A stretch of DNA of 37,354 bases. Source: a bacterium (GTDB taxonomy: Bacteria > Elusimicrobiota > Elusimicrobia > UBA1565 > UBA9628). Below the pieces are notes generated by a model that saw only the letters and a list, made by a program, of their open reading frames with translations, was not told where the DNA came from and did not search any database. Location of the stretch: assembly GCA_021846045.1 (NCBI GenBank), contig JAJZCM010000015.1:1-37354 (forward strand). The letters are read 5' to 3'. Every line of letters begins with the position of its first letter. Within the stretch, counting starts at the first letter, position 1. A program made the position numbers and the translations under genes. Below are positions 361 through 32,950 of the stretch, in pieces.

Positions 361-2286
361 TTGGAGATTTCAATGAAAAAAATATCGAGCCCTGAATTCA
401 ATTCCTGGACCAGACTTGCCCTCATCGCTTCTTCTCTCACCCTGCAAGCCTTGACTCCGGTTTTCGCCATTGAATTAGCGGAGAAGCCGGCTGCCATCGA
501 GACTCTGCCCTCTGGAATCGGGCAAAATACGTTCGATCCCGCGATTGGGATGGGTATTGAAGACCCTCTAAAAACTCCCCTTCCGCTTCCTCTTAATGTT
601 TCGGCGCCTCTCAGGGAAGATTCTTTACCTGTAACTACTTCCGTCACCCCGACGAAAGTCGGGGTCCAGAGCAGCAATCTTCTGGATTCCGGCTTTCGCC
701 GGAATGACGAACCTGAGCAGTTACCTTCCCCTGCATCTCAAAACAACGCCCTGACAAGTTCAAACATCCGGAGCGGCGTCAAGGCCTCCCGCAAAAGAAA
801 ATCCGCCCTCAGAAAAAAATTTGCTTCCAAGAATATCGCCCTTGGCCAATTAAAAGAAATGCTGAAAGTCACCAAGGAACGCAAAGACATCCCTTCTGAT
901 TGGATTAAAAAGATGCAAGAAGAAAATGCCAAGGCGGCTCCTGAGGTTCAACGGCTCAGGGACGCGGTCGAAAACCTCGGCTTTGACAAGGTCGCCCTCA
1001 ACCGAAAAATCGTCGCTGAGCACAATGATCATTACACTGTCAAAGTCCCGGACGGACTCATCACGGATCAAGCTCAGTCTGGAAGGTGCTGGATATTCGC
1101 TGGCCTCAACGCGATTCGTTCCCATCTTTTGGTCGAGAAAAAACTGCCAAAAGATTTTGAGTTTTCCGAAAACTACATTTATTTTTTCAGCATGCTGGAG
1201 CAGTCAAACAGCTACATGGAAAAAACTCTTCGCCTAACCCTTGCCCAAATGGCCGGCGCCGATATTCCGGAACAAACATTTCGAGGGCTGATAACGCCGA
1301 TGGATAAAATCGGAGACGGCGGCTGGTTTAACTGGTTTCAGTTTCTAGTCTCCAAATACGGGCTCATCCCGAAACGCATGATGTCAAACACCGCAAGCTC
1401 TCAAAACAGCGCCCGTTTAGGAAGCGAGCTTCAGTCCTCTCTTTCACTCTACGCCTCGGAACTAATGAATTTAATGCGCCAAAAGCCGTCTGTAGATACG
1501 GCCAAAAAGGCCGCTGAGATCAAGGAGCGCGCCCGGACGCGAATTTGGAAAATTCTCTCGACCCATTTGGGAACGCCTCCGAAAGAATTTGAATTCCGCC
1601 AAGACGCGAAAGTAGAAAAACCGGAGGAAGTCTCTAAAATTCCCGCGACAATCACCCGCTATACGCCGCTGGAATTCTCGAAAGACTTTATTCAATTTAA
1701 TCCTGCGGACTACGTCACCGCGACCAATTATTCGCGAAAGGAAAACGGCAAGGTCTATGAAGTTGAAAATTCCGCTATCGGATTCTCAGAGCCAGGAGAA
1801 CCCGCCTTTAATCACCGCTTCATTCAAACCGGAGCCGAGCGCATGGCGGAACTAGTCGCCGCCTCCATTAACGCGGGCCATCCGGTCTGGTTCGGATCTC
1901 AGATGGGCCGGGACACCGACAACGCGACGGGAATCATGCACCCAGACATTTACGACCGCAAAAACGTCTATGGATTTTCCGATGCCGAGAAAAAAGAAAC
2001 AATATCTCGAGACGCAGCGACCTATCTTGGGCTCAGGGAACTTAATCATGCGATGGCCTTTACGGGATATGACCGTCCGGATGAAAAAGCGCCCCTAGTC
2101 AAATTCAGGGTGGAAAATTCCTGGGGAGACACGGTCGGAACGAAGGGCATTTACCATATGTATCTGGACTGGTTTAAAGAGAACGTCTATCAAGTCATCG
2201 TGCACAAAAAATTCTTGAGCAATTTCGAGAAAAAAGCCTGGGATGGGAAAGCCAAGAAGCTCAAAGATTGGGACGACGTTCTTTAG
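361..2286 (+). CDS. Exported peptidase C1B (aminopeptidase C / bleomycin hydrolase-like)
   Basis: 641-aa ORF. Signal-like N-terminus (MKKISSPEFNSWTRLALIASSLTLQALTPVFA). Catalytic motifs: Cys region DQAQSGRCWIFAGLNAIRS, His region LRELNHAMAFTGYD, Asn region VKFRVENSWGD. Real start may be 373. Confidence 0.9.
   Translation: MEISMKKISSPEFNSWTRLALIASSLTLQALTPVFAIELAEKPAAIETLPSGIGQNTFDPAIGMGIEDPLKTPLPLPLNVSAPLREDSLPVTTSVTPTKVGVQSSNLLDSGFRRNDEPEQLPSPASQNNALTSSNIRSGVKASRKRKSALRKKFASKNIALGQLKEMLKVTKERKDIPSDWIKKMQEENAKAAPEVQRLRDAVENLGFDKVALNRKIVAEHNDHYTVKVPDGLITDQAQSGRCWIFAGLNAIRSHLLVEKKLPKDFEFSENYIYFFSMLEQSNSYMEKTLRLTLAQMAGADIPEQTFRGLITPMDKIGDGGWFNWFQFLVSKYGLIPKRMMSNTASSQNSARLGSELQSSLSLYASELMNLMRQKPSVDTAKKAAEIKERARTRIWKILSTHLGTPPKEFEFRQDAKVEKPEEVSKIPATITRYTPLEFSKDFIQFNPADYVTATNYSRKENGKVYEVENSAIGFSEPGEPAFNHRFIQTGAERMAELVAASINAGHPVWFGSQMGRDTDNATGIMHPDIYDRKNVYGFSDAEKKETISRDAATYLGLRELNHAMAFTGYDRPDEKAPLVKFRVENSWGDTVGTKGIYHMYLDWFKENVYQVIVHKKFLSNFEKKAWDGKAKKLKDWDDVL
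631..724 (+). repeat. 94-bp MITE-like element, copy 1 (inside the C1B peptidase gene)
   Basis: GTAACTACTT...GAGCAGTTAC with two internal hairpins (ACCCCGAC-GAAA-GTCGGGGT; ATTCCGGC-TTTC-GCCGGAAT). Flanks ctttacct (623-630) and cttcccct (725-732) match 6/8. Confidence 0.85.
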
Positions 2287-5009: not shown

Positions 5010-5750
5010 TCAAGGACCGAAACCAAAGCCCTTGAAGAGATTATCTTCCGACTGCGCCGAGGGAGCGGCGTTTTCTTTTTTCTTCTTCGGAGAAGCGGGC
5101 GAGGAAGCGGGAGGCAATGTTCCCGGCAAAGGGGCGGCGGCCGTACTGCCGGCAAGGCTTTGAACTGGAGCTACGATCACTTTGCGGATTCCTTCCGCGA
5201 AAACAATCATCCCGGTCTTTTCCTTGTAATAGAGCCTAAAGGGACTCTGCTTCATCTGCGGCTCATAAGCTTTTCCGAGATTGGATTTTTCTTCCTCCCA
5301 TCCCGGGTTATACGCCAATTTTCCCCTAACATCGACGATCCCATCGACAATCGGCAAAGAGAAACGAATTCGGTAAAAACCGTTGGAATCGCTAACCCCC
5401 GGATCAAAAGAACTGACGGCCAAGGCTTTTTCCCCGGTGTCGAATTGATCTTGACTTTCCTGGCCTTCGGCGGAAGCCACCGCGCGCACCACCACTCCTT
5501 GAATCGGGTTATCGGCATAATCGGTCACTACCCCTTGAATGTAGCCATCCAGAAACTGGCTTTTCTTCGGAAGAGAGAAGAATATGTAGTCATTGACGCC
5601 CGTCAATTTTTCAGTGATGGATAAATCGACGACCCGGCCCTCGGCAAAATCCAAAACGACAATTTTTCGAGGGGCCCCGCCGCAACCCCAAAACGTAAGC
5701 CCCACCAGAAAAAACAGTCCCGCCCAACTGTGGGTTTTCATTTTTTTCAT
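5010..5750 (-). CDS. Lipoprotein with carboxypeptidase-regulatory-like domain
   Basis: MKKMKTHSWAGLFFLVGLTFWGCGG signal/lipobox; YIQGVVTDYADNPIQGVVVRAVAS...SDSNGFYRIRFSLPIVDG typical of a CarboxypepD_reg-like beta domain. Start overlaps the upstream stop (ATGA). Confidence 0.6.
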   Translation of the reverse strand: MKKMKTHSWAGLFFLVGLTFWGCGGAPRKIVVLDFAEGRVVDLSITEKLTGVNDYIFFSLPKKSQFLDGYIQGVVTDYADNPIQGVVVRAVASAEGQESQDQFDTGEKALAVSSFDPGVSDSNGFYRIRFSLPIVDGIVDVRGKLAYNPGWEEEKSNLGKAYEPQMKQSPFRLYYKEKTGMIVFAEGIRKVIVAPVQSLAGSTAAAPLPGTLPPASSPASPKKKKENAAPSAQSEDNLFKGFGFGP

Positions 5751-6922
5751 AAAAAAGAGCGGCGGAACACAAAAGCCGCAATCAGAATCGGGAACAGGCT
5801 CAAGGAAAGCCACCATTTTGCCGCATTGTCAGAACCGGAAAGGGGCGGCAGTTCCGCAAGCGGAACATCGCTTAGTTTAGCTTGAGAAACGTTTGTCTCA
5901 AAAACGGATGAAAACGGAATGAAGAAATTCCATTTTGAATTAAGATTGGAAGAAGCATCCGAACTTAAACTTTGATAGACCCCTCCCACCTTACGGAAGA
6001 GGGAAAAATCTAAAATCCGCCTTGAGACGGTCATGACAATTAAGACCGGAAATCGGCCCGCAAAGGAAACTCCCGAAAGCAAATCTTCACCAAGACCGCC
6101 GCCGGAATCGGAAGATTGAGACAGCGCCGTCCATGAGCGCAACAAAATCTCATTAGTCGAGTCTCCCGGGGAGGGAATTTCTCCGACTGGAGAAACGGAC
6201 GGGTCTCGCCCCGAGGAAACCGATGCCGCATAACCGCCATTTGGTAATTGCTCAGGTTCGTCATTCCAACGCAAACCGGAATTCGGAAAATTGCCGCTCT
6301 GGACCCCGGCTTGCGTCGGGGTGACGTGAGTAATTACGCCATTTGGGTCATTCAGGACAGTCCCCAATTCTCTTTTGGATAAATGCCGCTTTGAGCGCTC
6401 TTGAGATTTCCCTTGCGATAAAAGCCGCCACAATTCATCGCTGATTTTGCGCCCCTTTTCGGCCGATTTTCTCGCGTCGTTTTCCCAAGTCTTCAGATTT
6501 TGAAGGGGCTCCTTAAGTTCGATTTCACGACGCCGAATGTCTTTTGAGAAAGGCAAATTTTGGTCTCGCGGTAAAGGAATGGAATCGCCGGGCGCCGCGA
6601 TAGGCCCAACATTGTTGGTCAACGGGTGAACTGCAGACGAACTCATGGGAGAATTGGGGCTGACGGGCAACGCTGAAAAAACTCCCAAGGGAATCGCTTG
6701 AGGAAGAGCGGTTTGAGGAGCCGTCCAAGTCAAAGTCAAGGGCGCGCCGAATCCGGAAGGCAAACCCGCATTTTGAGGCAAAGTTTCCAAACTCGCGCCC
6801 CCCGAAAAAGCCAGCGGCATGGCGCCGTTTCCGCCGACAATATTGCGTGAAAAAGCGCCGGCATGAAGATTTCCCGCCAGGCAAAGAACCAAGGCAAGAA
6901 GCGCCAGTATTTTCGTATTCAT
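5747..6922 (-). CDS. Exported low-complexity protein with C-terminal TM and basic tail
   Basis: Signal peptide MNTKILALLALVLCLAGNLHA; disordered body; C-terminus NAAKWWLSLSLFPILIAAFVFRRSFL. Start placed at 6922. Confidence 0.6.
   Translation of the reverse strand: MNTKILALLALVLCLAGNLHAGAFSRNIVGGNGAMPLAFSGGASLETLPQNAGLPSGFGAPLTLTWTAPQTALPQAIPLGVFSALPVSPNSPMSSSAVHPLTNNVGPIAAPGDSIPLPRDQNLPFSKDIRRREIELKEPLQNLKTWENDARKSAEKGRKISDELWRLLSQGKSQERSKRHLSKRELGTVLNDPNGVITHVTPTQAGVQSGNFPNSGLRWNDEPEQLPNGGYAASVSSGRDPSVSPVGEIPSPGDSTNEILLRSWTALSQSSDSGGGLGEDLLSGVSFAGRFPVLIVMTVSRRILDFSLFRKVGGVYQSLSSDASSNLNSKWNFFIPFSSVFETNVSQAKLSDVPLAELPPLSGSDNAAKWWLSLSLFPILIAAFVFRRSFL
6244..6337 (-). repeat. 94-bp MITE-like element, copy 2 (inside the 5747..6922 gene)
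   Basis: GTAATTGCTC...GAGTAATTAC on the plus strand, 94 bp, flanked by a perfect 8-bp direct repeat gccatttg (6236-6243 and 6338-6345). Confidence 0.9.
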
Positions 6923-6932
6923 TCCTATAGAA

Positions 6933-9900
6933 TTATAGAACATTCTTTCTTCGCTTTTTCTTCTTAAAAATCGCGGCAAAAATCCCCGCCGCGGTTCCGA
7001 AGAAAAGCGCTATTTTGGCGGCATAGGATAAAATCCTACCTTTAAGCGACAGCGCCGCATGAGGCGTAAAGGAAACCATAAGGGCGGGCTCTAATTCTTC
7101 CAAGCGGCGAATATAACGTTTCCACCAAGAAACTTGGCGAGTCAAAACCTGTTCGCGCGCCCGATCGGCCTTAAGGCGAGATTCAATTTCTTGCTGAGAA
7201 AGGACCCTGATCTCCCGCCCATAGACGTCTTCATGGAGCCGATCCGCCGCGACTTTGGAGCCGGAATCCAACGCCTCGTTTTCCTTTCTCATCCGTTCGA
7301 TCTCGATCTTTCTTTTTTTCAGGCTCGCCAAATCGCTTTTCCTTGCCGGGAGGTCCTTTTCTATTTGGTCGACATATCCGCGAGCTTCCTTGGAATCAGA
7401 TTGATATTCCTTGGCGCCGGCATCTATTTGAACCGTTTTCTGGGTGCGGTTGACCCAAATATCCTCGGGCTTGCCCGAAAAGACGGTCTTCCCCGAACCG
7501 TCCGCATTAGGAGACAAGCCCAGCTCCTTGTCGCTTAAAGCCTTGGCTAACGCTTTTTCCCCAACCGCTCCATTCTTTTGAGATTCCTCGTAAGGTTTAT
7601 CCCGTCCCTGCATTTCATTGATGACAACCTCGGACACCCCGCCGCGGAAATGGGCCAAGGTTCTTAATCTCGCGGCATTAATGTCTTCCTGATAGTAGCG
7701 AAGTAGACGCTCCAAAAATTGAGCTCCAAAATGAATATCCTTGTCTTTATACCGCCCGCTTAAAGACGCTTCGCTGTCTCCAGGCATGAGCGTCGATTGT
7801 CCCACGCGCAAATCGGGCGGAAATTGGCTTAAGTCATAATAGGGAGTGACCGGGTCCGGAAGGAAATTAAGAACATCGAGAGCCCCGGCGACATTGCGGA
7901 AAAAACCATGATGTTCCGTCGCCCCGCCTTCGGTCTTATACATAGCGACGCGCCCAAGATAATGACTAAATCTAGGATCTCGCCCCGCCCATTCCGCGGG
8001 GAAACCCACGATTTCGCGCGGAACCTCCATCATCAAGCTTCCCCAACGCCACGGCATCACGCCCCAGTATTTTTTGAAGGGAAGATGGAAGGATACGTTT
8101 TTGGCGCTCTTTTCCAAGTATCTCTGATTTAAAAGGACGGGATAGTTTTTTCCGTCGATCAAGGCCTCGTAATGGCTGACGCGCAAGGCCGGGTTGATCT
8201 GGTTCTTGGATTCAAACACGTTTTTCTCGCCCTTAATCGTCTTTGATTTCAATGTCCAGGACTTCGCCGCTTTTTCCATTTCCGAGGCGCTGTCATAGTG
8301 ATCGACCAAGCGCCCTTCAGAATCCATGATGGCGGCATAAATCGGCCCGCGCACGTACACGGCGGCTTTCCGTGACGACAAGCGGTCATCGAGAACGGAG
8401 CGTCCGTAAACCGGGGAAGCCTGGGCGTGGAGAAGCGTTTTATCCGAAGCAAAGCCCAGAATCAAATCGCGACTGCGGTAGAGGCTCCACGTCTTCGAAT
8501 GCCGTTTAATTTTGAACGCATCCTCCACCTGTTTTTTGGCGTCCGTAAACACCGCGGATTGAAGTTTCAAATCATCGCGAGCCGTATTCAATTTCTTGGA
8601 AAGCGAGTTGACATATTTTTGCTCGCCCTTATATTTTCCATTCGAGGCCAATTCTTTTTTAATCTGCTCATCCAGCCGCTGAGCGTAATCTTTATCTGAT
8701 TCCTTGTCTTTTTTAGGATACTGATCATGAGTATCCGCTTTGATTTTTTCCGACATCTCATTAGAAACTCGAACGCCGTCCAGCATCGCTTTCTCGGCTT
8801 CTTTTTCTTTTTTCTCGGACTCCCCTTGAGCTTGTTGGGCTTTAATTAATTTCAGTTGCGCGACCTTAAGCCCCGCATCCGCGTCCGACAGGGCCTTTTT
8901 AGCCGCGTCAAAATCATCCCGGTTTAAATAAATTTCCGCAACTTCTCCTCTCTCATTTCTCATAAAACCGTATCCGGCCAATTTCAGCTCCACGTATCCG
9001 GCCCGAAGTTCCGCCCGACGCCGAGAATCGAAGAAATCCGCCAAATTCGCGGCTCCTTTTTTAGAGAGATAAATCCGGCTGAAATCTCCCTTCATGGAAG
9101 AAGCCTTGAGAGATTCGAGGGTCTCGAATTTATCCGAGGGGAAAGCCGCTTTCCCCGTATAGACATAGACTTCGTATCGGTCCGGAGACCTGGCCCAAGC
9201 CGCCAAGGCCGGCAGTCGGTAATGCAAGCGCCCTGCATCTTTCGGATCGGGAGCCTCAAAGAAAAGGACTTTCCCTTGGCTTAAAAGACCGTGGGAACCG
9301 AAAAGTTCTTGGACGGAATAGCCGTTTTTGCCGTCGTCTGCGACGAAATCATGCCGGCCAAGGCGTTCCGCCAAATCAATGACGTGAGAATCTCCCTTGA
9401 TGCCGTTTTGCGTTTCAGATTTTTGCCGCTCAAAAGCGTCCGAACCTCCGACAAACTCGACGTTCGGATTCGCTTCGAGGAAATAGCGTCCGTTAATTTT
9501 AACGATTTCGTCTTTGCTTTTGTTTTTAGGATTCATGCGGTCTTTAATCTCATCGAGACTGAGCCAACGCTTGACCGTCCACAAACGGCGGCCGTCCTTA
9601 TCCATCTGGGTCTCGGCGTAAAGGGGATAAAGTTTTGATCCATGGCTGAGCCAAGAGGCCTTCTTGTCTTCCAGTTGCGCGATTTTAAGCGCGACGGCGT
9701 TGATGGACTGTTCCGATCGCCCCTCCCATCTCTCGGCAAAGAGCCGGGATTTTTCAAGCATAATCAAGGCGTCCAAGGCGAGAATCCCTCGCCCGGATTC
9801 CTTAAAATCAATTTGGCGGTTGAGACTCTTTCTGGCGTCATAGAGAGCATCCAGCGTGCGCATGAGCTCCACGTTTCCTTGGACCTCTTTTAGGTCCAAG

Positions 9901-12900
9901 GTTCGGACCAAATCTTCGTCAAAAACTTGCTGAGCCTTGAGATAGTTGTCCAAAAGCCCGTCTTTTAGGATAAATTCGTCGTTTTTCAAGGGCGAGGCGA
10001 AATAAGAATCAATCAATGCGTCTTTGGCCAAAATCAATTCTTGGCGATCCGCTTCAAGGGCTTTAAAGGCGGCTTCCGATCGAGGAGAAACCGAGACCGC
10101 GTTCCAATACGCATCACGAAGGTCCAAGGCGGCTTGGGAATATTCTGTCCGCTTTTGATCGCTTGAACTCAATTCTTCTTCCAAATCCTGGCGCAAAAAC
10201 GCTAATTGCGGGTCCTTTTTTAAGATTTCGGTCTTGAGCGCTTCAAGGCCAAACATCAGGAGATTTCTCTTCCCGCGCGCGTCATTTTTCGCCAAGAGGC
10301 GCAGTCTTTCATCCGACGAGAAATTTTCCGCTGTCGCATCCTTGGAGTCGCGGATCGCGGCGCTGTAAAGGCGAGCCACTGAATCGACGGAATCAATCAT
10401 CTGCCGGGAAATTCCCCATTTTTCAAGATAATGATCTTGGCGGAGGATAAAGTTCGGGTCTTCCATGCGATCCGCCCAATAGCCCAAAAGCCCGCGATCC
10501 GATGGATTTTTGGGCAAACCATGGTTTTCCAAAACGCGCTGGTCCCCCAAGCTCAGATTCTTAAGCAAGGGATTCGGCGCCGAGGAGTTTTCTTTCCGCC
10601 CCAAGGCTTTGAGTTCCGACACCAAGGAAATAAAATTGGATTTCAAATCCGCCGACTGAGTGATCAACTTTTCCCAAGTTTGAACTAAATTTTTCCTTGC
10701 CTCCAAGAAATCTTGCTGAGCCTTGGGCGATTCCGGATTATGATTGGCGGTCCACTCTTTCTGCTTTAAGTCGCTGGCCGCCTCATCCAACAAACGGCTG
10801 TCGGCCTGAACTTCCTTCATTCCACCGGAAACGCGGGCCATTTGAGTATAGAGAACTATTTCAAGTTTTTTAAACTGCCCCTGGGCCTTCAACTGCTCGC
10901 GAATGGAGTTGGATAAAATATCGGTCAACCCGCGTTCAATTTCCTGCGGGTCGGGGGCTTCTAAAAATCCGCCGAAAATAGGGGTTCCGCGGAAAATTCC
11001 AAAGGCGGCAATCGGCGTAATCCCCTGATAACTCATGTGTTCAGCCAGCACATCGGCGCGAATTTGGTTCATGAAAATGTCTTTCTCGTTCTGAGGCCCA
11101 AAAGCCTCTAAACCCAACATTCGAGCAATGCGCGCTTTACCCGCCGGAGAATTAATTTCTTCAACCAGATAAGGTAAATCGCCGGAGGAGTCAGTTCCCT
11201 TAAATTCCGGAACAAGATTCGATAAGAGGCGCAAACGCTCTTCCATCGTCTGCCCCTGAGCCCGCGAGAGCCCCAACAACGCCCAGATCTCTTCCGATTG
11301 AGAGAGCGTTTTTTGGCGAACGGAATTAATCATATCCGCCCAATCAGTTCCGACTTCTTTCCCATGATGCAATTGAATCCAGTTAAGAAAACGGACATTC
11401 TCCGTGAAATCGGCCAACTCCGAATCGGCCAACGCCGCCGAGCGCTCACGGGCAATTTTGTCCAAACGCTCGGCCTTATCCTGGGACAATTTGGCCAAGG
11501 CGATTAAATCCGGAGCCGGGGTGTCCTTGTTTTTGAGGCGCAACTCGATCCAGGGCTCCAAAAATCCGCGATTAATCGGAGTTTCATCCAAGGTCTGCCG
11601 GGCGTAAAAATAGCGCATGAACATTTCCGCCGGAGCCTTATCAAATCCTGGAGCGGGAATCGGGGGCAAGGAATCCAAACGGGGAGTGCGGGTCACCTTT
11701 TCTTCTCCATCGATCAGACGGCGCCGAAGTTCCGCAAAATTGGCGGGCAGGGAAGCGGAATTGTCCTGTACGGAGGAATTTCCCTCAAGACTGAGAAGAG
11801 AGGCTTGAATGGCGGCCTTGTCTCCTTTTAATTTTTCCACCTTGGCGAAATCAAGCGAATCCCCCTTTGCCGACAATCTTTGAATCTCGGAATCGATCAT
11901 TTGAAGGCTGACCTGGCTGCGCGCTTGAAGATTCGCTAAATGAGCATCGAAGGAATCTTTCTGCCTTTCTTCCATTAAAAGTCTCAGGCGCGCGGCCATC
12001 ACCTTATCGGCGCGGCCCGAGTCTTCCGCCGACAAGGCGCTAATTAATCGCCCGATCGTCCGCGCCGCCAGCGAAATCGGATCGGCTGAAACATCCTGAA
12101 CCTTCAGATTTCTATCAACCATCTCTTGATAAGCCCTGGCCACTTGAACGCGAGCCGCGAAAATAGTCTTTTGGGCCGCAACCAGATTCTGATCCTTGAG
12201 AACTCCTTGAAGTTGTTGATAAGCCTTCTCCGGAGAGATGTCGATGGACAGCACGGAATCCGCCGGACGCCCCATCAAGACGTTGAGAGCTGAATGAGCC
12301 TCGTCGTTAGTCAAAACCATCTGAGCGCGCCACAGTTTCGCGTTGAAGATTTCCTTTTGGATTTTGTCGGCTTTTGCGCGGTCGCCTAAAGACCGGGCTT
12401 GGGAGAGCTTTTGCTCAAGGCCGGGAAGAACTTCTTGATCCACCTGGGCGATGACCGACTGAGCGGCTTTGGCTTGAACGATATCTTGATACATTTGAAG
12501 AGCCGTCTCGACCTTGAGTTTCGTCTCCAAAGCCCCGTAATAGGCGGATTTGCCCTTGTCGGCTTTGACTTGCAACTCTTTAAGCTCTCCCGGCTGAAAG
12601 TGCGCTCCCGGAATCGGTAAAATCGGAAATCCGGTAAAGCCAAAAGAAGGCAAGAACCCGGCGCCGGTGGCGGTTAAATCCGCTCCGATCATGAGGTTAA
12701 TCCAGAATTTTTGTGTGATGTGATTGTCGGCTTTCGCCAAAGCCTGGAACTCTTCTTGATGAAGGGCCAAGGCTTCCAAGGACGAATTTTGAAACGCAGT
12801 TTGAACGGCGCCCTTTAAGTCTGAAACGCTGAAAGGCGGCGAATCCGAAACATTTTTTCCGCCGACCGCCTCATCCATCTTGGCCCAGGCGCCGGACGCA

Positions 12901-15900
12901 GCGGCGAGGGACTCTGAATTTACGGTCGCCTGGGCGTTCAAGTCCCACAGGTTAATGGCCTGCCTAAGCTCGTTTCTTGAAATCAAGCCGTTGCGATAGG
13001 CCTTAAAGGCAAACTCTAATTCGTTGCTGGTCCGCGGAAGAGCCGCAGTCATTTCCTCGGCCGTCTGCCCCCAGACAGCGGCTTCTTGGCGCTCATTATT
13101 GGCTAAAAGACGGTATTGAGAATGGATGTCCTCCATTTCCCTGAGATCAGCCTCTTTTTTAAACAAATAGCTCTTATTTTTATCCTTGGACGACGGATCA
13201 TAGAAAGGAAGGCGCAAGGTTCCACCGACGCCGAAAATCTGTCCCGCCATTAAATCCTGGATTTGAGTTCCAATGCCGAAAGTAAATTGATCGACAAATG
13301 AAATCCAGTCCATGATGTTAAAGCGATCTTCTCCGATGCGGTCCTCAAGAGAAGTCTTGTCCAAGGACGCGAGAATTTTCTTCAAACGGTCGGGGGCGGA
13401 CACAAACGAGTGGATTTCCTTGACTAAATTTTGAACGTCCGCAAGATTGAGATCGTCAAACGGCGTTGGGGAATCCGGATTTTTTCCGGCCATGATGTTA
13501 TAGCGCACGCGCGCCTCGCTTAATTTTTCAAGCGCCTCCGCCAGCCGCGCGTTGGCCTTGCCCTTTTCGATGACGGAAGCGGCGTTTTGGCTCAAAAACA
13601 CCGCGCGCTGGGCGGCAAGCCGAGCCTTGACAATTTGAAGAGCGTTTTCCTCCCAATCCTTCGTTAATTGAACCAACCGCGATTGGAGCAAAAGACCGTT
13701 CTTGTAGAGAGAGACGACCTTGCCGTCCAAAAGCTCCTTCTGAGTCTTTGAGAGAGTCACCATGGTCTCGGTGCCGCTCATGAAGCCTCCGGTGGCGGCC
13801 AATTCTGCCGGATTATTTGAAACCGGGCCTGAAACAAAGCCAGCGTCTCCCACCACCTTGACGTTATCTAAAATCGCACCCGCCGCTCTTAAATCCTTGA
13901 TATCGTGGTCCAAGGTTCCAATTTTTTGTTCAATCAGCCTTCTTCCGACGTCCTTGGCGAAGACCGCTTTAAGTTGGTTAATATCTTTTTGGCCTTTTTG
14001 GGGCTTGAGAAAACCCGTCATTCGCTTTTGATAGTCCTTGAGGGCTTTCCCCCCGTTTAAATCATTGGAGGCGCTGTGGGTCACATCATTCCAAAGCTGA
14101 GAAAGACTGGCCGAGGTGTTGACCATCAAAGACAGGCGGTTATTGTAGCCGACAAAGGGAGAACCGTATCCAACTGACACATCAGTTCTCTTGGTCAATT
14201 GCTTGCCAATCTGCGCGTAGTAGGCGTCCGCCGACCCCAACATCTGCCATTGGGCGCTGAAAACAATTCCGTTTTGGGGAAGTTTCACCGACAACTGATC
14301 AATGGCGATATTATACTGTTGCCCCAACTCTCCGGTCGCGGTGTTGGTGATATCAATCAAGGGGTGTTTCGCATCGTCATAAATGGTAAAGCCTTTGAGA
14401 ATGGTCGCCCCCAAGGTCTGCTGGGCAATGTCGTAAGTGCCGGCGTAATTGGCGTAATAAAGGTCCACGGTAAATGGATTTTCGTCATTTTTAGAAACTA
14501 TTCCCGCTTGTTTGAGAAGAGACGCCACGTCGAATTTAGGTCCGACCTTTGTTTCATAAAAGTTTGCGCTCGCCCCATGCGCGGCGATATCGAAGGTTTG
14601 GTTGAGGCTCGGGTCAAGACCGGTGAAGTCGAGATTGGCGGTTTCAAAAAACTGCCGCGGATCTTTTGCGAACAAAGCCTGCTGGTCGGCATCCAAGCTC
14701 ATGACAGGGGTCAATTTAATTGAAGTCTTGGCGTTCGCCCCGTAGTAATAAGGCTGATTGGCAGAATTTTGCGCCGCCGCGTCTCCAAAACCCGTCAAGC
14801 CGACGTAAAGCTTTCCGTTCATCAAAAGCATCGCGTAATCATCAAAGATAAGAAGACGCGACTCATTGGCTTGGGACCCAAACGACATATTCGGAGGAAC
14901 GTCCAAAATATCGTGATGGATGATCGCCTCGAAATAATTAACGTCATTTTTGCGCAAGGTCTCAACTTGAACACCGATACCCTTGTCTCCCCAAGGGGCA
15001 TTGGAAGCTCCGCCGGTTTCCGGTGGAGAATAGGTGTCATACGCCGTCACGCTCAAATTGCTGCCCATCACATGGGCAACATTCCCCAAGGTCACTTGAT
15101 TGGTCGAACTGAGTCCGTAAGGAACGCCAAACCCGGTTTGATAAACCAAATAGAAGCCGTCTTCGGAATCCCCCAGATTCATAATCTGCGCTCCGGGAAT
15201 CAGTTGGGAGATGTTTTGGGGATTGGAGAGAATGCTTTGCGCCAAGGATCCGATATCGGCCGAGGAAGCGTTTTGCCCGCCGGAAAGGCTTGAAAGAATA
15301 TTATGGACAAAATCAGGGAAGCTCGATTTTTTAATCACTAAGGCCGAGGCCCCGGAAGAGGAGTTAAGCCCCATCCCCCATCCCGAGTCGCTTAAGTGAA
15401 GGGAAGCAATCTCTTGCTTAATATGATTGGGCAATCGATCCCATCCGTCATCCTTTAACTTATCAAGCAGATGAGTCAACCGGTCCTGCTTATCCTGAAC
15501 CAAATCCATATCCGCCTTGAGGATTCTGTCGGTTCGAGAAAGCTGGTCCTTTGATTGAGTCCACAGATGGTTGGATTCAAGAACCTTGCGGGTGTCATCC
15601 TGAATCGAGGAAATCGCCTCCGAAGTTCTTCTCAACGCGCTGTCATAAGGGCTGTTGAGTTGCCCCATCCAGGACAAGAGTTGCGATTTCGTGCTATTGA
15701 GGCTGCTCATCGTATTTTGAAGCGCCGTCATCATCGAATTCATCGCCGACAAGTCGCCCTGGTCAACCGTGACCCCCGAGCCGTAAACCTGGTTAGCCAT
15801 GGCCTGATAATAGGTGGAAAGCAAATTGACCGTCCCCAACGACCCGGGATCGTATTGATTGATTTTGAGATTGTAAAAATTGATTCCTTCTTGGAGAACG

Positions 15901-18900
15901 GACTGAAGGGAATTGAGCATCGCGATTTGATTGGCGTAAACTGTCGCGGTCGGAGGGCTGTTGCCGCCTGAATTGACGTAGGCCTGGTCCTGTTTTAATT
16001 GCGCCTGAGCTTTGTTTAAGGCGGCAGTCGCATCATTTAAGAATTTTTCGACCTGGGGAATTTCAGTTGTGAGTTCCTGCTGGGAACTTTGAACCGTCGA
16101 AAAGGAATAGAGAAAGCGCGCGATGGAATAAGAAATGGAAGGAGAATTAGCGCTGCTTCCGGCCGATGGCGCCAAGATTTTTGTCGCGTCCAAGGCTAAG
16201 AGGGCCAATTGTTGCGAATTAGAAACCGTCGGAGAGGGCTGATGCCCGGTTTGAACCGCAAGGCCGCCTCCCCCGCCCACATTGATAGGAGATCCGAAAC
16301 CCGCTTGACCCGCGATATTTTTCAACTCGGAAACCAAACCCATCAAATTCCCATTATTAGTCACGGAGAGAGAATAAATCTGGTTATATCCCGCTTGACT
16401 TGCCGCGACGTTAGTCGGCAGTTGATAGGACGACAGATTGTATTTCCCCCCTGACAGGGTCTGGATTTTCGTCAAAATTTGGTTGAGTTGCGCGTCCTGA
16501 TTGTTGATTTCCTTGACGCGCTGATCCATTTCAGTCGTGTAAAGAGTGGTTTTTTTCGGAAGGCTGTACGGCCCGCCGCCGGGATAATTGCTGTCTTTTA
16601 AATAATCCACGGTCTCGTTTCCGTTAAAATTCGGGTCTTTTCTTTCATTGACCTGGGTTAGATTTGTTGAAACCGTCTGTTGAAGGTTGGTGAAATTGTT
16701 CTGCCAGGACTGCAAACTCGAAGCGGCATTTTTGGAATTGCCGCCCAAAGAAATGAGCCCCCCGGGAATGGTCTTATCATTGAGCTGCTGGGTCTGGGTA
16801 ATGAGAGAATTTTCGGCGCTGAAAAGTTCCTGATAGGTTCCATTCTGGGATACTTGCTGAACGGAAGACTCTTGGTAGGGAATGAGGGTATTTTCCAAGC
16901 CGCCTTGAATGGCGGTCAAGGGAGCGATGACGTCGTTTTGAAGCAAGTTTTCCTTGCGGTTAATGAGCGCCTGCACCGCGTTGGTCGGGGGATTGGAGTT
17001 GGCATTGGGATATTGCGCCACGAAGGTCTGATCAGACTGCACATCATTGAGAATGTTTTGCACCATGTTGACCGCTTGCTTCATGGCCGACTGGGCCTGA
17101 GGGACGGTGTTTTGAAGCGCGCTTTGAATGGTGGTCACAGTCGTCTGGGCTTCGCTTCCCTGAATGACCAGCCAAGCTGCCTGCGGCAAGAGGGAAGCGA
17201 TTTTTACCAAATCGAGGGAAGCCTGGAAAGATTGGGGCGTCCCGTTATTGGGAATCTGGACGTTTTCAATATCTGCGCCGTAATTGGCAATTGTGGTCTG
17301 AAGCTGGGTCATCGAAAGTCCTGAAAGCTGGGGCAAGGCCGTGCCGCCGGCCTGGGTGATCTGAGAGGACAGTTGATCCATTTTAGCGATGATGGGGTTG
17401 AGGGATGTTTTCGCTTGGCTTAAGGTTTGGCCGGCCTGGGCTTCCCACGCCGGCAAAGATTGCGGATGGGATCTCCCAAACTCATCGGTCACGGTAATTT
17501 GATTATTCGGATCCAACATGGCCTCAACCGAGTTAAGATCTTGTTGAAAGGTATGAAGCTGTCCTTGCCAGTAAGTCTTGCGCGCGCTTAAAATCTCGGA
17601 GAAGCTCATTGAATTCGAAATGCCCGGGCCTCCCGGAACGTCCTTGATGATCATCGGCCAGGCTTGAGTGGGCGCTGTCTTAAGCTCGTTCAGTCCATTC
17701 TGGGCCGATTGGAGATTAGTCTGAACCTCGCTGAGGATGATTTTAAATTCTCTCAGGGAAAAAGCCGACGGGTCGTTGGGGTTTCCGTTGGTTCGCCATT
17801 GGGACACCTGCCCCAGCTCTTGCTCGCGAAGTTGGAACTTGCTTTCTAAAGCCTGCGCCTCGGAATCAAAACTCCCGGTTTTGACTCCCTCATGGGATGC
17901 AATCGTCGCCATCACGGAGGGAAGCACGCTTTGAACGGCGGTGAAAACTTGAACTGCGGAAGAAGCCTCGTTAAAGTCGGAAGTTAATTGACTTTGCTGG
18001 GTCTGATCGGCCTGGGTCTGCTGAACCGTCTCCTGTTTCCATTGAGGGAGATTGGACTCCGCCTGTTGAGCCGCCGCTTCGTTTTGCTGGGACAAGGTCT
18101 GGGACTGAGTGATACTTTGGATATTCGTGTTTAAAAGATTCTCCATTCCGCCGATGGCATTTTCCGCCGCATTGATTTCACGAAGCCCCAAGGCAAAATC
18201 CATGACTGCCGAAACCTGGGAAAGGCTCTGGATGAAATTCATCATGTCATTCCCGTTTCGGCGATTATTCAAGGCCTGATCCCGCGCCTTGGACACCACT
18301 TCAAGCGTTTTTCTAGTTGCATCTCTCATCTTCATCTGCGCTGAGGCATTGGCCCTCAAAGCTCTAATTTCCTTAACCAGGCTTTCGATTTCTTTTTGAG
18401 TTTCCGGATTGACCGGCGCGATATCGGCCCGCGAGTTTTTATCATCAATTCCGATTTTTTGGTCCAAACTGCTCAAAACCGATTTCAACATCCCGGGGCG
18501 AATCCCCTTATCCTCGGCGTATCCGATGCGATCTTCCGCTCCCCTAGGCACAAGGGTCTTCAATTTATTTTTTAGCTGATGGAGACGTTCGTCGGAATTG
18601 CGGTCGTGGCGGCTTAAATCGCGGCTTTCCGAAAGCTTTGAGCGAACATAGCGCTCGTTTTGGGCTTGCCTTAATTTAGCTAACTGGGCTTTATAGGCCC
18701 TGAGCTCGCCGGGGGTCAAAGGCCGGTTTTGGGTCTTTAGCGCCGCTTCGTTTTTTTGGACCGAGGCCAAGTCTTTTTGAAGCTTAAGTTCTTGCGCGCG
18801 CGCGGCCTTCATCTCCTCGCTAAAATTCCCCGCCGACTTTTCAAGCTCTTTAAGGCGCGCCGCCCTTTCCTTCGGGGTCTTTTTGTAAAGATCGGGATCG

Positions 18901-20927
18901 AAAGGAATCGGCTTATTGGGAGCGGATGCCGTCGTCGTTAAGCCTATGGCGGAAACGCCGGCAGTGTGGGAATTCAAAGTGTGCATTACCGCATCGGATA
19001 AGTTAAATCCCGAAGCCGATTCGGCTTTGTAGAGAAGAATGTTTCCCCAGGTGATCGCGCCGCCCCAAGGAACAAGGCTTTGTCCCTTCGGAGCCTCAAA
19101 GGCCGAGAAAAGCCCGTGAAGGCCGTGAAAATCATGCCCCGTTACGACATGCCAGGCTGGGCTGAGACCCGTGTCAATCTGGGTTCCGTAGGAAAGAATC
19201 CCTTGGATTTCAGAGCCGACGGTCAATAATCCTAGGAAAAATTTGAGGTCCTGCCAAATAAAGAACTTCCAGAATTCACGGGCAAAAATGGCCGAGGCCA
19301 CGGTCTGAGTCCAACCGACGGAATCCGATGGATGTTCCGCTTCAAGCCGGCGGCGATGCTGATCCAGCGACTGGGGCAAGGTAAAAATGGTTGAGAGAAT
19401 GAAGGTGTTTAAGATCGGGCCGAGAACCAAATCCTTCATCAGTGCCTGAGTGGCGGCGGCTACGACTGGAGCAAAAATCCCACCCATCCAGGGAATACCG
19501 GAAATAAAAACAGGAAGGCTGTTGGCGCCCGCAACCAGAAGCGGCCCTATCACGGGAGCTGACAAGAGACTTAAGTGAAGAATCGCAACTCCCGGGGCCA
19601 AGGCGCCCAAAATTCCCATCGCCACCGCTGAGGCCACCGCCATGATAAGCCGCCGCCTTAGAAAAGCGAGAAGCGGCAGGGGAGCAACATGGCCGAACAT
19701 TCTCACTGCGCGGCCAAGTCCGGTCGCGAGAAAACGCGAGGCCAAGGTTTCGCCTGCGCCCGATATCGCGGTTTCGCGCAAAACGCGGCGGAAAAATTTT
19801 TCGGCGTTCTGGGTCTCTACGACTAGCCCACCCTCGGCATCGGCCAGGCTTAAGAAATCCTCGGTTGAATGGGCGAAAGTATAGCTGGCGTTTTGCCGGA
19901 AATAACCCAGGACGAAAACGTCGAACAAATGATAGGGAAAACGGACAAAAAAGCCCAGCAGGTGCTTCTGTATCTCGAAGCTTCGCTCAATCCGGCCCTT
20001 CCACCCGTCTTCATAATGCAAATTCGCCAACTTTTGGAATCCAACATGGTATTTCTGCGCGTCGAAATGTTGGAAGCGCTGGGCATTAAGCCTTTGAAGC
20101 CCTAAATAAACGGAGTCCCATTCGGCATTGGAGGAGCTTTCTTTAAGCCCGACCTTGGAAGCAAGTTTTATAACGCGCGCGCGCGGTATATGGAACTGGC
20201 GGGAAATTTGATCGATGATTTGGGAAGTCTTGGCATTCAAGGGCAGGCGGGAAAGTCCGGAGTCATACTTCAAGCCGGCGACTTTTCGGTAGCCGAGCAT
20301 ATTCTCATAGAAAATTGAAACGCCCGGAGGGCCTTTGGAAGATTTCGGAGGCAACGCCCCTCCAAAGTCGCCCGGAGGCGGCCCTAGCGGCGGCCCTCCG
20401 TCTCCAATTCTCCCCGCACCATCAAAAAGCGCGTTGCTTGCCAAGGCCGCAGACTCGGGAGACCCCGGAGAAGGCGAGTCAGCATTATCGTCATTCCGGC
20501 GACCGAGCATCGGCGAGGAAGCGCCGCTTCCGAGTTTGTTGGAAAGCGGCTGAAAGCCGGAATCCGACCGAGCGATAACGCGAGGAAGCGCCGTTTCCAG
20601 ATTCCGAAGGGGAACGGCCGGACCACCGCGAACGGACTGGACCCCGGCTTTCGTCGGGGTGACGATGGGGGAGTTAGGGACTCCTAACTCGCGTTCGCGG
20701 GAAGGGAGCACCGCGTTCGAAGGAGGAATTTCAGCGCCAAATTGAGACGCCGCAGACGGATCCAAGGATTGTTCAGGAAGAGAGATGGCGTTTCCCAGCG
20801 GATCGGAAGAGTCTTCTTTGGGGGCGTCAGCGGCTAAAACCGTGTAAAAACGGGCGCCCGGAGACAATAAGATCAAGCTGAGCGCCAAAAAGGCCGAGAG
20901 AAACCGCTTGAACTCTTTTTTTATCAT
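6933..20927 (-). CDS. Giant (4664 aa) exported protein with coiled-coil, TolC/outer-membrane-efflux-like and beta-rich segments
   Basis: Single uninterrupted ORF. Signal peptide MIKKEFKRFLSAFLALSLILLSPGARFYTVLAA; hydrophobic N-terminal region around aa 400-520; Q/N/S/T-rich coiled-coil stretch; aromatic/glycine beta-rich stretch; two TolC-like helical regions (RVRYNIMAGKNP..., HSALNVLMGRPADSVLSIDIS); C-terminal TM and KKKKRRKNVL. Confidence 0.85.
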   Translation of the reverse strand: MIKKEFKRFLSAFLALSLILLSPGARFYTVLAADAPKEDSSDPLGNAISLPEQSLDPSAASQFGAEIPPSNAVLPSRERELGVPNSPIVTPTKAGVQSVRGGPAVPLRNLETALPRVIARSDSGFQPLSNKLGSGASSPMLGRRNDDNADSPSPGSPESAALASNALFDGAGRIGDGGPPLGPPPGDFGGALPPKSSKGPPGVSIFYENMLGYRKVAGLKYDSGLSRLPLNAKTSQIIDQISRQFHIPRARVIKLASKVGLKESSSNAEWDSVYLGLQRLNAQRFQHFDAQKYHVGFQKLANLHYEDGWKGRIERSFEIQKHLLGFFVRFPYHLFDVFVLGYFRQNASYTFAHSTEDFLSLADAEGGLVVETQNAEKFFRRVLRETAISGAGETLASRFLATGLGRAVRMFGHVAPLPLLAFLRRRLIMAVASAVAMGILGALAPGVAILHLSLLSAPVIGPLLVAGANSLPVFISGIPWMGGIFAPVVAAATQALMKDLVLGPILNTFILSTIFTLPQSLDQHRRRLEAEHPSDSVGWTQTVASAIFAREFWKFFIWQDLKFFLGLLTVGSEIQGILSYGTQIDTGLSPAWHVVTGHDFHGLHGLFSAFEAPKGQSLVPWGGAITWGNILLYKAESASGFNLSDAVMHTLNSHTAGVSAIGLTTTASAPNKPIPFDPDLYKKTPKERAARLKELEKSAGNFSEEMKAARAQELKLQKDLASVQKNEAALKTQNRPLTPGELRAYKAQLAKLRQAQNERYVRSKLSESRDLSRHDRNSDERLHQLKNKLKTLVPRGAEDRIGYAEDKGIRPGMLKSVLSSLDQKIGIDDKNSRADIAPVNPETQKEIESLVKEIRALRANASAQMKMRDATRKTLEVVSKARDQALNNRRNGNDMMNFIQSLSQVSAVMDFALGLREINAAENAIGGMENLLNTNIQSITQSQTLSQQNEAAAQQAESNLPQWKQETVQQTQADQTQQSQLTSDFNEASSAVQVFTAVQSVLPSVMATIASHEGVKTGSFDSEAQALESKFQLREQELGQVSQWRTNGNPNDPSAFSLREFKIILSEVQTNLQSAQNGLNELKTAPTQAWPMIIKDVPGGPGISNSMSFSEILSARKTYWQGQLHTFQQDLNSVEAMLDPNNQITVTDEFGRSHPQSLPAWEAQAGQTLSQAKTSLNPIIAKMDQLSSQITQAGGTALPQLSGLSMTQLQTTIANYGADIENVQIPNNGTPQSFQASLDLVKIASLLPQAAWLVIQGSEAQTTVTTIQSALQNTVPQAQSAMKQAVNMVQNILNDVQSDQTFVAQYPNANSNPPTNAVQALINRKENLLQNDVIAPLTAIQGGLENTLIPYQESSVQQVSQNGTYQELFSAENSLITQTQQLNDKTIPGGLISLGGNSKNAASSLQSWQNNFTNLQQTVSTNLTQVNERKDPNFNGNETVDYLKDSNYPGGGPYSLPKKTTLYTTEMDQRVKEINNQDAQLNQILTKIQTLSGGKYNLSSYQLPTNVAASQAGYNQIYSLSVTNNGNLMGLVSELKNIAGQAGFGSPINVGGGGGLAVQTGHQPSPTVSNSQQLALLALDATKILAPSAGSSANSPSISYSIARFLYSFSTVQSSQQELTTEIPQVEKFLNDATAALNKAQAQLKQDQAYVNSGGNSPPTATVYANQIAMLNSLQSVLQEGINFYNLKINQYDPGSLGTVNLLSTYYQAMANQVYGSGVTVDQGDLSAMNSMMTALQNTMSSLNSTKSQLLSWMGQLNSPYDSALRRTSEAISSIQDDTRKVLESNHLWTQSKDQLSRTDRILKADMDLVQDKQDRLTHLLDKLKDDGWDRLPNHIKQEIASLHLSDSGWGMGLNSSSGASALVIKKSSFPDFVHNILSSLSGGQNASSADIGSLAQSILSNPQNISQLIPGAQIMNLGDSEDGFYLVYQTGFGVPYGLSSTNQVTLGNVAHVMGSNLSVTAYDTYSPPETGGASNAPWGDKGIGVQVETLRKNDVNYFEAIIHHDILDVPPNMSFGSQANESRLLIFDDYAMLLMNGKLYVGLTGFGDAAAQNSANQPYYYGANAKTSIKLTPVMSLDADQQALFAKDPRQFFETANLDFTGLDPSLNQTFDIAAHGASANFYETKVGPKFDVASLLKQAGIVSKNDENPFTVDLYYANYAGTYDIAQQTLGATILKGFTIYDDAKHPLIDITNTATGELGQQYNIAIDQLSVKLPQNGIVFSAQWQMLGSADAYYAQIGKQLTKRTDVSVGYGSPFVGYNNRLSLMVNTSASLSQLWNDVTHSASNDLNGGKALKDYQKRMTGFLKPQKGQKDINQLKAVFAKDVGRRLIEQKIGTLDHDIKDLRAAGAILDNVKVVGDAGFVSGPVSNNPAELAATGGFMSGTETMVTLSKTQKELLDGKVVSLYKNGLLLQSRLVQLTKDWEENALQIVKARLAAQRAVFLSQNAASVIEKGKANARLAEALEKLSEARVRYNIMAGKNPDSPTPFDDLNLADVQNLVKEIHSFVSAPDRLKKILASLDKTSLEDRIGEDRFNIMDWISFVDQFTFGIGTQIQDLMAGQIFGVGGTLRLPFYDPSSKDKNKSYLFKKEADLREMEDIHSQYRLLANNERQEAAVWGQTAEEMTAALPRTSNELEFAFKAYRNGLISRNELRQAINLWDLNAQATVNSESLAAASGAWAKMDEAVGGKNVSDSPPFSVSDLKGAVQTAFQNSSLEALALHQEEFQALAKADNHITQKFWINLMIGADLTATGAGFLPSFGFTGFPILPIPGAHFQPGELKELQVKADKGKSAYYGALETKLKVETALQMYQDIVQAKAAQSVIAQVDQEVLPGLEQKLSQARSLGDRAKADKIQKEIFNAKLWRAQMVLTNDEAHSALNVLMGRPADSVLSIDISPEKAYQQLQGVLKDQNLVAAQKTIFAARVQVARAYQEMVDRNLKVQDVSADPISLAARTIGRLISALSAEDSGRADKVMAARLRLLMEERQKDSFDAHLANLQARSQVSLQMIDSEIQRLSAKGDSLDFAKVEKLKGDKAAIQASLLSLEGNSSVQDNSASLPANFAELRRRLIDGEEKVTRTPRLDSLPPIPAPGFDKAPAEMFMRYFYARQTLDETPINRGFLEPWIELRLKNKDTPAPDLIALAKLSQDKAERLDKIARERSAALADSELADFTENVRFLNWIQLHHGKEVGTDWADMINSVRQKTLSQSEEIWALLGLSRAQGQTMEERLRLLSNLVPEFKGTDSSGDLPYLVEEINSPAGKARIARMLGLEAFGPQNEKDIFMNQIRADVLAEHMSYQGITPIAAFGIFRGTPIFGGFLEAPDPQEIERGLTDILSNSIREQLKAQGQFKKLEIVLYTQMARVSGGMKEVQADSRLLDEAASDLKQKEWTANHNPESPKAQQDFLEARKNLVQTWEKLITQSADLKSNFISLVSELKALGRKENSSAPNPLLKNLSLGDQRVLENHGLPKNPSDRGLLGYWADRMEDPNFILRQDHYLEKWGISRQMIDSVDSVARLYSAAIRDSKDATAENFSSDERLRLLAKNDARGKRNLLMFGLEALKTEILKKDPQLAFLRQDLEEELSSSDQKRTEYSQAALDLRDAYWNAVSVSPRSEAAFKALEADRQELILAKDALIDSYFASPLKNDEFILKDGLLDNYLKAQQVFDEDLVRTLDLKEVQGNVELMRTLDALYDARKSLNRQIDFKESGRGILALDALIMLEKSRLFAERWEGRSEQSINAVALKIAQLEDKKASWLSHGSKLYPLYAETQMDKDGRRLWTVKRWLSLDEIKDRMNPKNKSKDEIVKINGRYFLEANPNVEFVGGSDAFERQKSETQNGIKGDSHVIDLAERLGRHDFVADDGKNGYSVQELFGSHGLLSQGKVLFFEAPDPKDAGRLHYRLPALAAWARSPDRYEVYVYTGKAAFPSDKFETLESLKASSMKGDFSRIYLSKKGAANLADFFDSRRRAELRAGYVELKLAGYGFMRNERGEVAEIYLNRDDFDAAKKALSDADAGLKVAQLKLIKAQQAQGESEKKEKEAEKAMLDGVRVSNEMSEKIKADTHDQYPKKDKESDKDYAQRLDEQIKKELASNGKYKGEQKYVNSLSKKLNTARDDLKLQSAVFTDAKKQVEDAFKIKRHSKTWSLYRSRDLILGFASDKTLLHAQASPVYGRSVLDDRLSSRKAAVYVRGPIYAAIMDSEGRLVDHYDSASEMEKAAKSWTLKSKTIKGEKNVFESKNQINPALRVSHYEALIDGKNYPVLLNQRYLEKSAKNVSFHLPFKKYWGVMPWRWGSLMMEVPREIVGFPAEWAGRDPRFSHYLGRVAMYKTEGGATEHHGFFRNVAGALDVLNFLPDPVTPYYDLSQFPPDLRVGQSTLMPGDSEASLSGRYKDKDIHFGAQFLERLLRYYQEDINAARLRTLAHFRGGVSEVVINEMQGRDKPYEESQKNGAVGEKALAKALSDKELGLSPNADGSGKTVFSGKPEDIWVNRTQKTVQIDAGAKEYQSDSKEARGYVDQIEKDLPARKSDLASLKKRKIEIERMRKENEALDSGSKVAADRLHEDVYGREIRVLSQQEIESRLKADRAREQVLTRQVSWWKRYIRRLEELEPALMVSFTPHAALSLKGRILSYAAKIALFFGTAAGIFAAIFKKKKRRKNVL
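20481..20665 (-). repeat. Degenerate/composite relative of the 94-bp element inside the giant gene
   Basis: Minus strand has CGTCACCCCGACGAAAGCCGGGGTCCAG (plus 20637-20664) and a second half GGATTCCGGCTTTC...GCCGGAATGACGA split by extra sequence. It contains an imperfect ~32-34-bp direct repeat (20500-20531 and 20565-20598). Terminal GTAAYT repeats are not evident. Confidence 0.6.
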
Positions 20928-24283: not shown

Positions 24284-24297
24284 AACTGTTCGCTTCT

Positions 24298-24391
24298 GTA
24301 ACTACTCGCGTCACCCCGACGAAAGTCGGGGTCCAGAGCAACAATTTTCTGGATTCCGGCTTTCGCCGGAATGACGAACCTGAGCAGTTAC
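24298..24391 (+). repeat. 94-bp MITE-like element, copy 3 (intergenic)
   Basis: GTAACTACTCGCGTCACCCCGACGAAAGTCGGGG...GCCGGAATGACGAACCTGAGCAGTTAC; flanks tcgcttct (24290-24297) and ttgcttct (24392-24399) match 7/8. Confidence 0.9.
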
Positions 24392-24418
24392 TTGCTTCTT
24401 AATGATAGAATAAAAATT

Positions 24419-32277: not shown

Positions 32278-32950
32278 ACCTAATTTTAACGAATCCACTC
32301 TCTCTGAAAAACCCGCGATCGAGCAATTGGTCGGCATGGGTTACGCATTCATCCCGGGTGACAAGCTCGACCCGGAGGCAACACGATCCACGCTCGATAA
32401 AGCTGTCCGCCGAACTTTGCAGGGGTGCGTAGCGGCAATCGCTTTCTTGACCGTGTTAGTGGTTTCAGCACGAGCAAACTCTCCCAAGCCAGCTGGTCTC
32501 AGAAACACGACAGAACGCCACACTATTCAAAATCCTACTATGCCGAGCGCATTTGCCCAGAAAAAGGATATACCCGTCAGTCGGGATTCGGCGAACTCAT
32601 CAGCAGAAAAATCCAGCGTTTATGAGACCCTTTTACTCGCCCTCTCCGCGATGGAAGGTATTCTGTTTGCAATGTTGGGTGTTATTGTCCAAGTCGATTC
32701 CGCTCGCTCCCTAAGAATGGGTTCCAAAGTGTTCCCGATTATTCCATACGTATCTTTTGCACTAACAGCCTTCTGGCTCCAAGCATTGTTTCTCATTCCG
32801 TTTGACATCGGACGTCTTAAGCCAGTGTGTGCTTATGCCATATTTACCGTCAGCGTCATCGCAATCGGAGCAATCGCGGTTCGGGCCATCCGCGCACTCG
32901 ATCCTAACCATGTGGTTGACCGAACACTGGATTGGTATTTCAATGAGTAG
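32267..32950 (+). CDS. Fusion of HsdR N-terminal fragment to a ~4-TM membrane protein
   Basis: MNPRPNFNESTLSEKPAIEQLVGMGYAFIPGDKLDPEATRSTLDKAVRR is near-identical to the HsdR start at 35107; then hydrophobic segments QGCVAAIAFLTVLVVSA, LLLALSAMEGILFAMLGVIVQV, FPIIPYVSFALTAFWLQALFLIPF, CAYAIFTVSVIAIGAIAV. Confidence 0.75.
   Translation: MNPRPNFNESTLSEKPAIEQLVGMGYAFIPGDKLDPEATRSTLDKAVRRTLQGCVAAIAFLTVLVVSARANSPKPAGLRNTTERHTIQNPTMPSAFAQKKDIPVSRDSANSSAEKSSVYETLLLALSAMEGILFAMLGVIVQVDSARSLRMGSKVFPIIPYVSFALTAFWLQALFLIPFDIGRLKPVCAYAIFTVSVIAIGAIAVRAIRALDPNHVVDRTLDWYFNE
32282..32412 (+). repeat. Duplicated 5' end of hsdR (copy A, 87-bp internal deletion)
   Basis: 131 bp aligning to 35110-35327 (218 bp). 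60 bp (gcgatcgagc...gctcgacccg) are identical; flanking differences are mostly third-codon; an 87-bp in-frame gap. Confidence 0.9.

Follow-up and report, generated by a model that had tools for sequence, protein, structure and literature searches.

Insertion sequences of the IS66 family are recognized by termini starting with GTAA and by target duplications of 8 bp. A MITE is not defined by the presence of an autonomous partner, and it may persist after that partner is lost. In the open full-text literature, no IS66-type MITE of the kind described below was found, and nothing relevant was found in the literature on MITEs of Elusimicrobiota. Concerning in-frame insertion, the closest conceptual analogue would be the Rickettsia palindromic elements (RPEs), only an analogy being claimed. 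These are hairpin-forming repeats of about 100–150 bp with an open frame, inserted in frame in conserved genes; they are documented as translated inserts and their target duplication is listed as unknown (PMC2229807), while those of R. conorii end in CGTC (PMC3733652). Concerning the interior of the element, CGTC-tagged REPs consist of a CGTC tag, a stem of 8–9 bp usually starting with A/T pairs, a loop of 4–5 bases and a CCA tail, and they have been reported without an associated transposase (Di Nocera et al. 2013, PMC3733652). QMITE2 of Coxiella burnetii is, like the element studied here, a MITE that contains a REP and is flanked by duplications (7–11 nt), but its REP is of the GTAG type, its length is 150–190 bp, and it lies mostly in 3′ untranslated or intergenic DNA and was not shown to be in frame in genes (PMC5896051).

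The window, i.e., the whole stretch of 37,354 nucleotides analyzed, corresponds to contig C79 of the host genome G000 (1.996 Mb in 93 contigs, 97% complete). It contains, as predicted, three 94-bp elements with near-palindromic arms that start with GTAAYT and end with ARTTAC. Copy 1 (631..724, plus strand) is in frame in a C1-like peptidase gene (ORF 361-2286), where it encodes VTTSVTPTKVGVQSSNLLDSGFRRNDEPEQL; it is flanked by the 8-bp target-site duplication (TSD) CTTTACCT at 623..630 and CTTCCCCT at 725..732, which agree at 6/8 positions. Copy 2 (6244..6337, minus strand) is in frame in a hypothetical gene (ORF 5747-6979, minus), between 8/8 repeats at 6236-6243 and 6338-6345. Copy 3 (24298..24391, plus strand) lies between two divergent genes, with 7/8 repeats at 24290-24297 and 24392-24399. 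An ORF is called from position 24371, within this copy, and its ATG is probably spurious. The original prediction gave the correct repeat sequences in an order permuted against that of the elements: ctttacct/cttcccct belongs to the element at 631, gccatttg to that at 6244 and tcgcttct/ttgcttct to that at 24298. An older composite (20487..20667, minus strand), made of a dimer of CGTC-tagged REPs plus two nested palindromic units of 54 and 51 bp, is located in frame near the N-terminus of a 4664-aa ORF (6933-20927, minus), and its GTAA ends are unrecognizable now. The giant protein encoded by this ORF looks secreted. Elsewhere in the window, a type I restriction locus has the 5′ part of its hsdR-like gene present twice (32282-32412 and 35110-35327), with blocks 93% and 80% identical and unrelated ORFs between them.

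The interior of the element is a head-to-head dimer, each half of which shows a CGTC tag, an 8-bp stem, a GAAA loop and a CCA tail. In copy 1, the first REP (642..668, plus strand) reads CGTC-ACCCCGAC-GAAA-GTCGGGGT-CCA, and the second, inverted one (683..709) reads CGTC-ATTCCGGC-GAAA-GCCGGAAT-CCA on the minus strand. Both agree with the published definition and follow the layout of CGTC family 1 (PMC3733652), with the slight departure that one REP has C-G rather than T-A as its second stem pair. The other difference is that the dimer studied here is carried by a MITE that makes TSDs, while no transposase was found for the described REPs (PMC3733652). As a whole, the element folds as one long hairpin (z about −6 to −9).

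A first search of G000 for the element scored 40 of 125 candidates as matches. In a census of about 0.9 Mb of G000 stretches, partly chosen around matches, 65 copies were found to be bounded at both ends by terminal inverted repeats (TIRs). The TIRs, GTAACTACTCA and GTAACTGCTCA, are identical at 10/11 positions, and their pattern occurs at 53 sites in the genome versus 1 in a reversed control. The length of 94 bp noted for the three copies of the window holds for 48/65 copies of this sample, the others being mostly near-94 indels or composites holding a nested unit of 51 or 54 bp. The 8-bp TSD is perfect in 29/65 copies and matches at 7/8 in another 14/65, while flank shuffling gave a mean of 0.8 pairs at ≥7/8. 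Because the ends of the census copies had been refined partly using the flanking repeat itself, a recount was made without refinement, with ends strictly fixed at GTAA/TTAC: a perfect match was then present at 8 bp in 14/24 copies and at 3–7 bp in 0/24. The duplicated targets are A+T-rich (about 70% versus about 50% for the genome).

Empty sites were found by comparison across species, not between strains. The pheS genes of four congeners (G001-G004) lack the element and show a single C(T/C)TT(T/C)TAT where G000 has CTTTTTAC[94 bp]CCTTTTAT, and the pgl genes of G001 and G004 show an identical, exact gap of 94+8 bp. Two sites are left out of this count: that of argS, where the insertion falls in a length-variable loop and the alignment is approximate only, and that of copy 1 of the window, where the linker of the C1-like peptidase is not alignable. 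So, the calculation that insertion plus duplication amounts to 102 bp was borne out by the alignments, and the description of the element as a MITE with an 8-bp TSD is upheld by both the census and the empty sites. It could be argued that the intragenic copies arose as artefacts when a metagenome-assembled genome was put together or binned, considering that the nearest named records are all of this kind and that G000 is in 93 contigs. This is extremely unlikely, since 94 bp is less than the usual read length, the insertion sites carry TSDs, the copies have dozens of unique flanks, and congeners provide exact empty sites.

The distribution of the element is narrow. Its right-end pattern has 62 occurrences in G000, 3 in G002 and 2 in G003, and it is absent from every other genome among 296 of the phylum; none was found in viral contigs, nor in a broader collection of genome contigs from which near records may be missing. 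The MITE is thus restricted to one lineage, and in the host species it has multiplied and is tolerated in frame. A related element of 104 bp is present in G003, in the apparent orthologue, recognized by eye, of an element-bearing gene of G000, at another position, and the different positions would fit independent insertions.

Copies were called intragenic with a hexamer coding model when the frame was open and there was a coding signal on both sides. There were eleven of them, eight with strong and three with weak coding signal, the genes hit being the tRNA-synthetase genes pheS and argS, pgl, a COX15/CtaA-type gene, a YdjC-like gene, the C1-like peptidase gene and the hypothetical gene of the window, and four others. 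All eleven are in sense orientation, in phase 0 and of net length divisible by three, so that 34 codons are added with the reading frame unbroken; among the other copies, 12/54 have a net length off by 1 or 2. Sense phase 0 is free of stops in 47/48 of the 94-bp copies, the next best of the six frames being open in 12/48. The claim that one frame is open, and that genes can be colonized without truncation, was therefore extended from the window to the genome. A copy at C49:2797-2890 (L134) was considered as an out-of-frame intragenic case and rejected, as it lies between two genes that by eye resemble kdpB and kdpC, the upstream one taking its stop codon from the junction with the copy.

No second gene homologous to pheS, argS or pgl was found in the 97%-complete G000, the leftover matches to these queries being copies of the element. 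Since the three genes are single-copy, the interrupted versions are probably functional. Against the best solved chains, the alignment of PheS breaks at the insert; with chain 1b70 it runs in one stretch across it, which hints that the insert may occupy a naturally length-variable loop of PheS. The presence of insertions in single-copy pheS and argS, together with the strong hairpin, could also be explained if the insert were removed from the RNA or the protein, in the manner of an intron or intein, and were for this reason tolerated in essential genes. Such a removal is hardly credible: no Rfam family matched the element above chance, the open frame kept in every intragenic copy would be needless under removal at the RNA level, and translated palindromic inserts have a precedent in the RPEs (PMC2229807). 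If the segments are translated, the 34 residues added naturally to PheS, ArgS and Pgl would provide tests of how proteins absorb new segments.

The likeness to RPEs thus extends to size, hairpin, open frame and in-frame location in conserved genes, while the element studied here, in an unrelated host, has a clear TSD, TIRs and empty sites that point to IS66. The MITE shows the GTAA ends and the 8-bp TSD of IS66 derivatives, its termini being GTAACTACTCA (left) and GTAACTGCTCAGGT (right), or GTAACTACTCACGTCA and GTAACTGCTCAGGTTC when extended. A search across the class gave IS66 elements with matching ends in G250, a genome of the same class and another family. There, a complete element (L273:32-2467, with PF03050 and zf-IS66) has the ends GTAACTACTCAGAT, also written GTAACTACTCAG(AT), and GTAACTGCCCAGGT, the right one being set by a homology break against L285. 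A decayed element of the same genome (L289:1264-2465) ends in GTAACTACTCAGGTCA and GTAACTACTCAGGTTC, each identical to the corresponding MITE end at 15/16 positions. Moreover, an A/G difference between left and right ends at position 7 is common to the MITE and to L273. No clear TSD flanks the G250 copies themselves. Within the taxonomic family of the host, other IS66 elements start with GTAA, two of them with near-perfect (7–8/8) 8-bp TSDs. The elements of G038, G043, G017 and G019 were rejected as close end matches, because apart from their GTAA ends only 7–10 of 13 positions are common with the MITE; among the IS66 elements compared, only those of G250 give a good match. The attribution to IS66, advanced originally from the type of ends and duplication, was strengthened by these near-identical, end-specific termini, and they constitute the strongest evidence for a mobilization by IS66, which would occur in trans. 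The element differs from known IS66-family insertion sequences and their MITEs in being non-coding and of only 94 bp, in having a REP dimer instead of a recognizable remnant of an insertion sequence, and in the lack of an IS66 gene in the host: no PF03050 match was found in G000 or in the four congeners. This absence of the partner is not final, because the assembly is 97% complete. An apparent IS30-type transposase, judged by eye, at the end of contig C4 was considered, and is an unlikely partner given the 8-bp TSDs. In the L273 element of G250, the ORF beside the IS66 transposase (L273:77-1006) contains the DruA domain of Druantia (PF14236).

A different enzyme is suggested by the interior of the element: with a core of two inverted CGTC-tagged REPs and a fold into one long hairpin, it could be a REPIN/REP-type palindrome whose movement depends on a RAYT (Y1, HUH) transposase, the flanking repeats being incidental. 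This origin is very unlikely, as consistent 8-bp TSDs indicate staggered double-strand cuts by a DDE enzyme and not an HUH-type insertion, the termini match IS66 ends, and no Y1 transposase (Y1_Tnp, PF01797) was found in G000. Very probably, the element is an IS66-type non-autonomous transposon (MITE) mobilized in trans by an IS66 transposase, its compatibility with the reading frame being incidental. The course of events would be as follows. In each copy, IS66-like termini flank the head-to-head pair of REPs; an IS66-family DDE transposase acting in trans would cut at these ends and move the element, this enzyme having possibly been lost by the host, left out of the assembly, or retained only in other cells; on integration, an A+T-rich target is duplicated over exactly 8 bp; insertion would be blind to frame, and purifying selection would remove the insertions not tolerated; frame compatibility, incidental in itself, would widen the range of tolerable targets. 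The way in which palindromic elements reach essential genes in frame becomes testable, with TSD, ends and empty sites pointing to a DDE route of the IS66 type.

Whether frame compatibility is an adaptation, i.e., whether the gain of 102 bp and the open frame are kept by selection on the element, was considered with the copies outside genes. In favor of this, sense phase 0 is open in the 94-bp copies with non-genic ones included, the latter being open in 38/39 cases versus 34.2 ± 1.9 expected (P about 0.03), and the nested units are likewise multiples of three. Nevertheless, synonymous changes are not in excess in the non-genic copies (48 observed versus 63.5 expected), and their stop mutations are close to expectation (4 versus 5.4). 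One third of random lengths would comply with the multiple-of-three rule, lengths off by 1 or 2 are tolerated outside genes, and several copies of another MITE family with the same core, described below, have frame-breaking lengths. An adaptation is thus improbable. Since the length of 94 bp is kept outside genes too and the encoded peptide lacks a synonymous excess, the best reading of frame compatibility is that of a lucky, incidental property, with selection acting after insertion. With a coding fraction of about 0.92, random insertion with one of six frames tolerated would give about twice as many genic as intergenic copies, while 11 genic and 54 other copies were seen; so, most in-frame insertions are probably lost too, or A+T-rich targets favor intergenic DNA.

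Besides the dimer core, the original prediction had overlooked a second MITE-like family with this core and the smaller nested units. The second family occurs in G000 with other ends (TAGTGNAGTGTCCC... / ...GGACACTACACTA), of the TA...TA type, and with varying length (L056:13889-14021, L066:10785-10919, L074:4181-4320, L094:11344-11475 and three more copies). Judging from its TA ends, it may be IS630/mariner-like. It is also present in G002 and, at one end, in G030. In G000, REPs with neither the GTAA nor the TA set of ends occur as well. A tentative interpretation, somewhat less probable than its negation, is that the CGTC-REP dimer is a portable core which, within one genus, has come to be framed by ends from two or more unrelated types of transposon (GTAA ends with 8-bp duplication, IS66-type; TA ends, mariner/IS630-like). 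This would explain the spread of CGTC REPs without a transposase of their own, the IS66-type version having given a MITE that colonizes genes in frame. What moves the CGTC-tagged REPs, reported without a dedicated transposase (PMC3733652), becomes testable with a REP dimer carried by two MITE families.

The nested palindromic unit (GCCGCTTTCCAACRAACTTGGAAGCGGCRCTTCC...GCTCGGTC) is 51 or 54 bp long, both multiples of three, and is nearly confined to CGTC REPs. It is inserted at two positions of the REP, either after CTGG or in the TTTCG/CCGG loop, examples being C7:111818-111868 of G000 (L061:11818-11868) and 20500-20550 of the window. By its location, it looks like a satellite that targets REPs.
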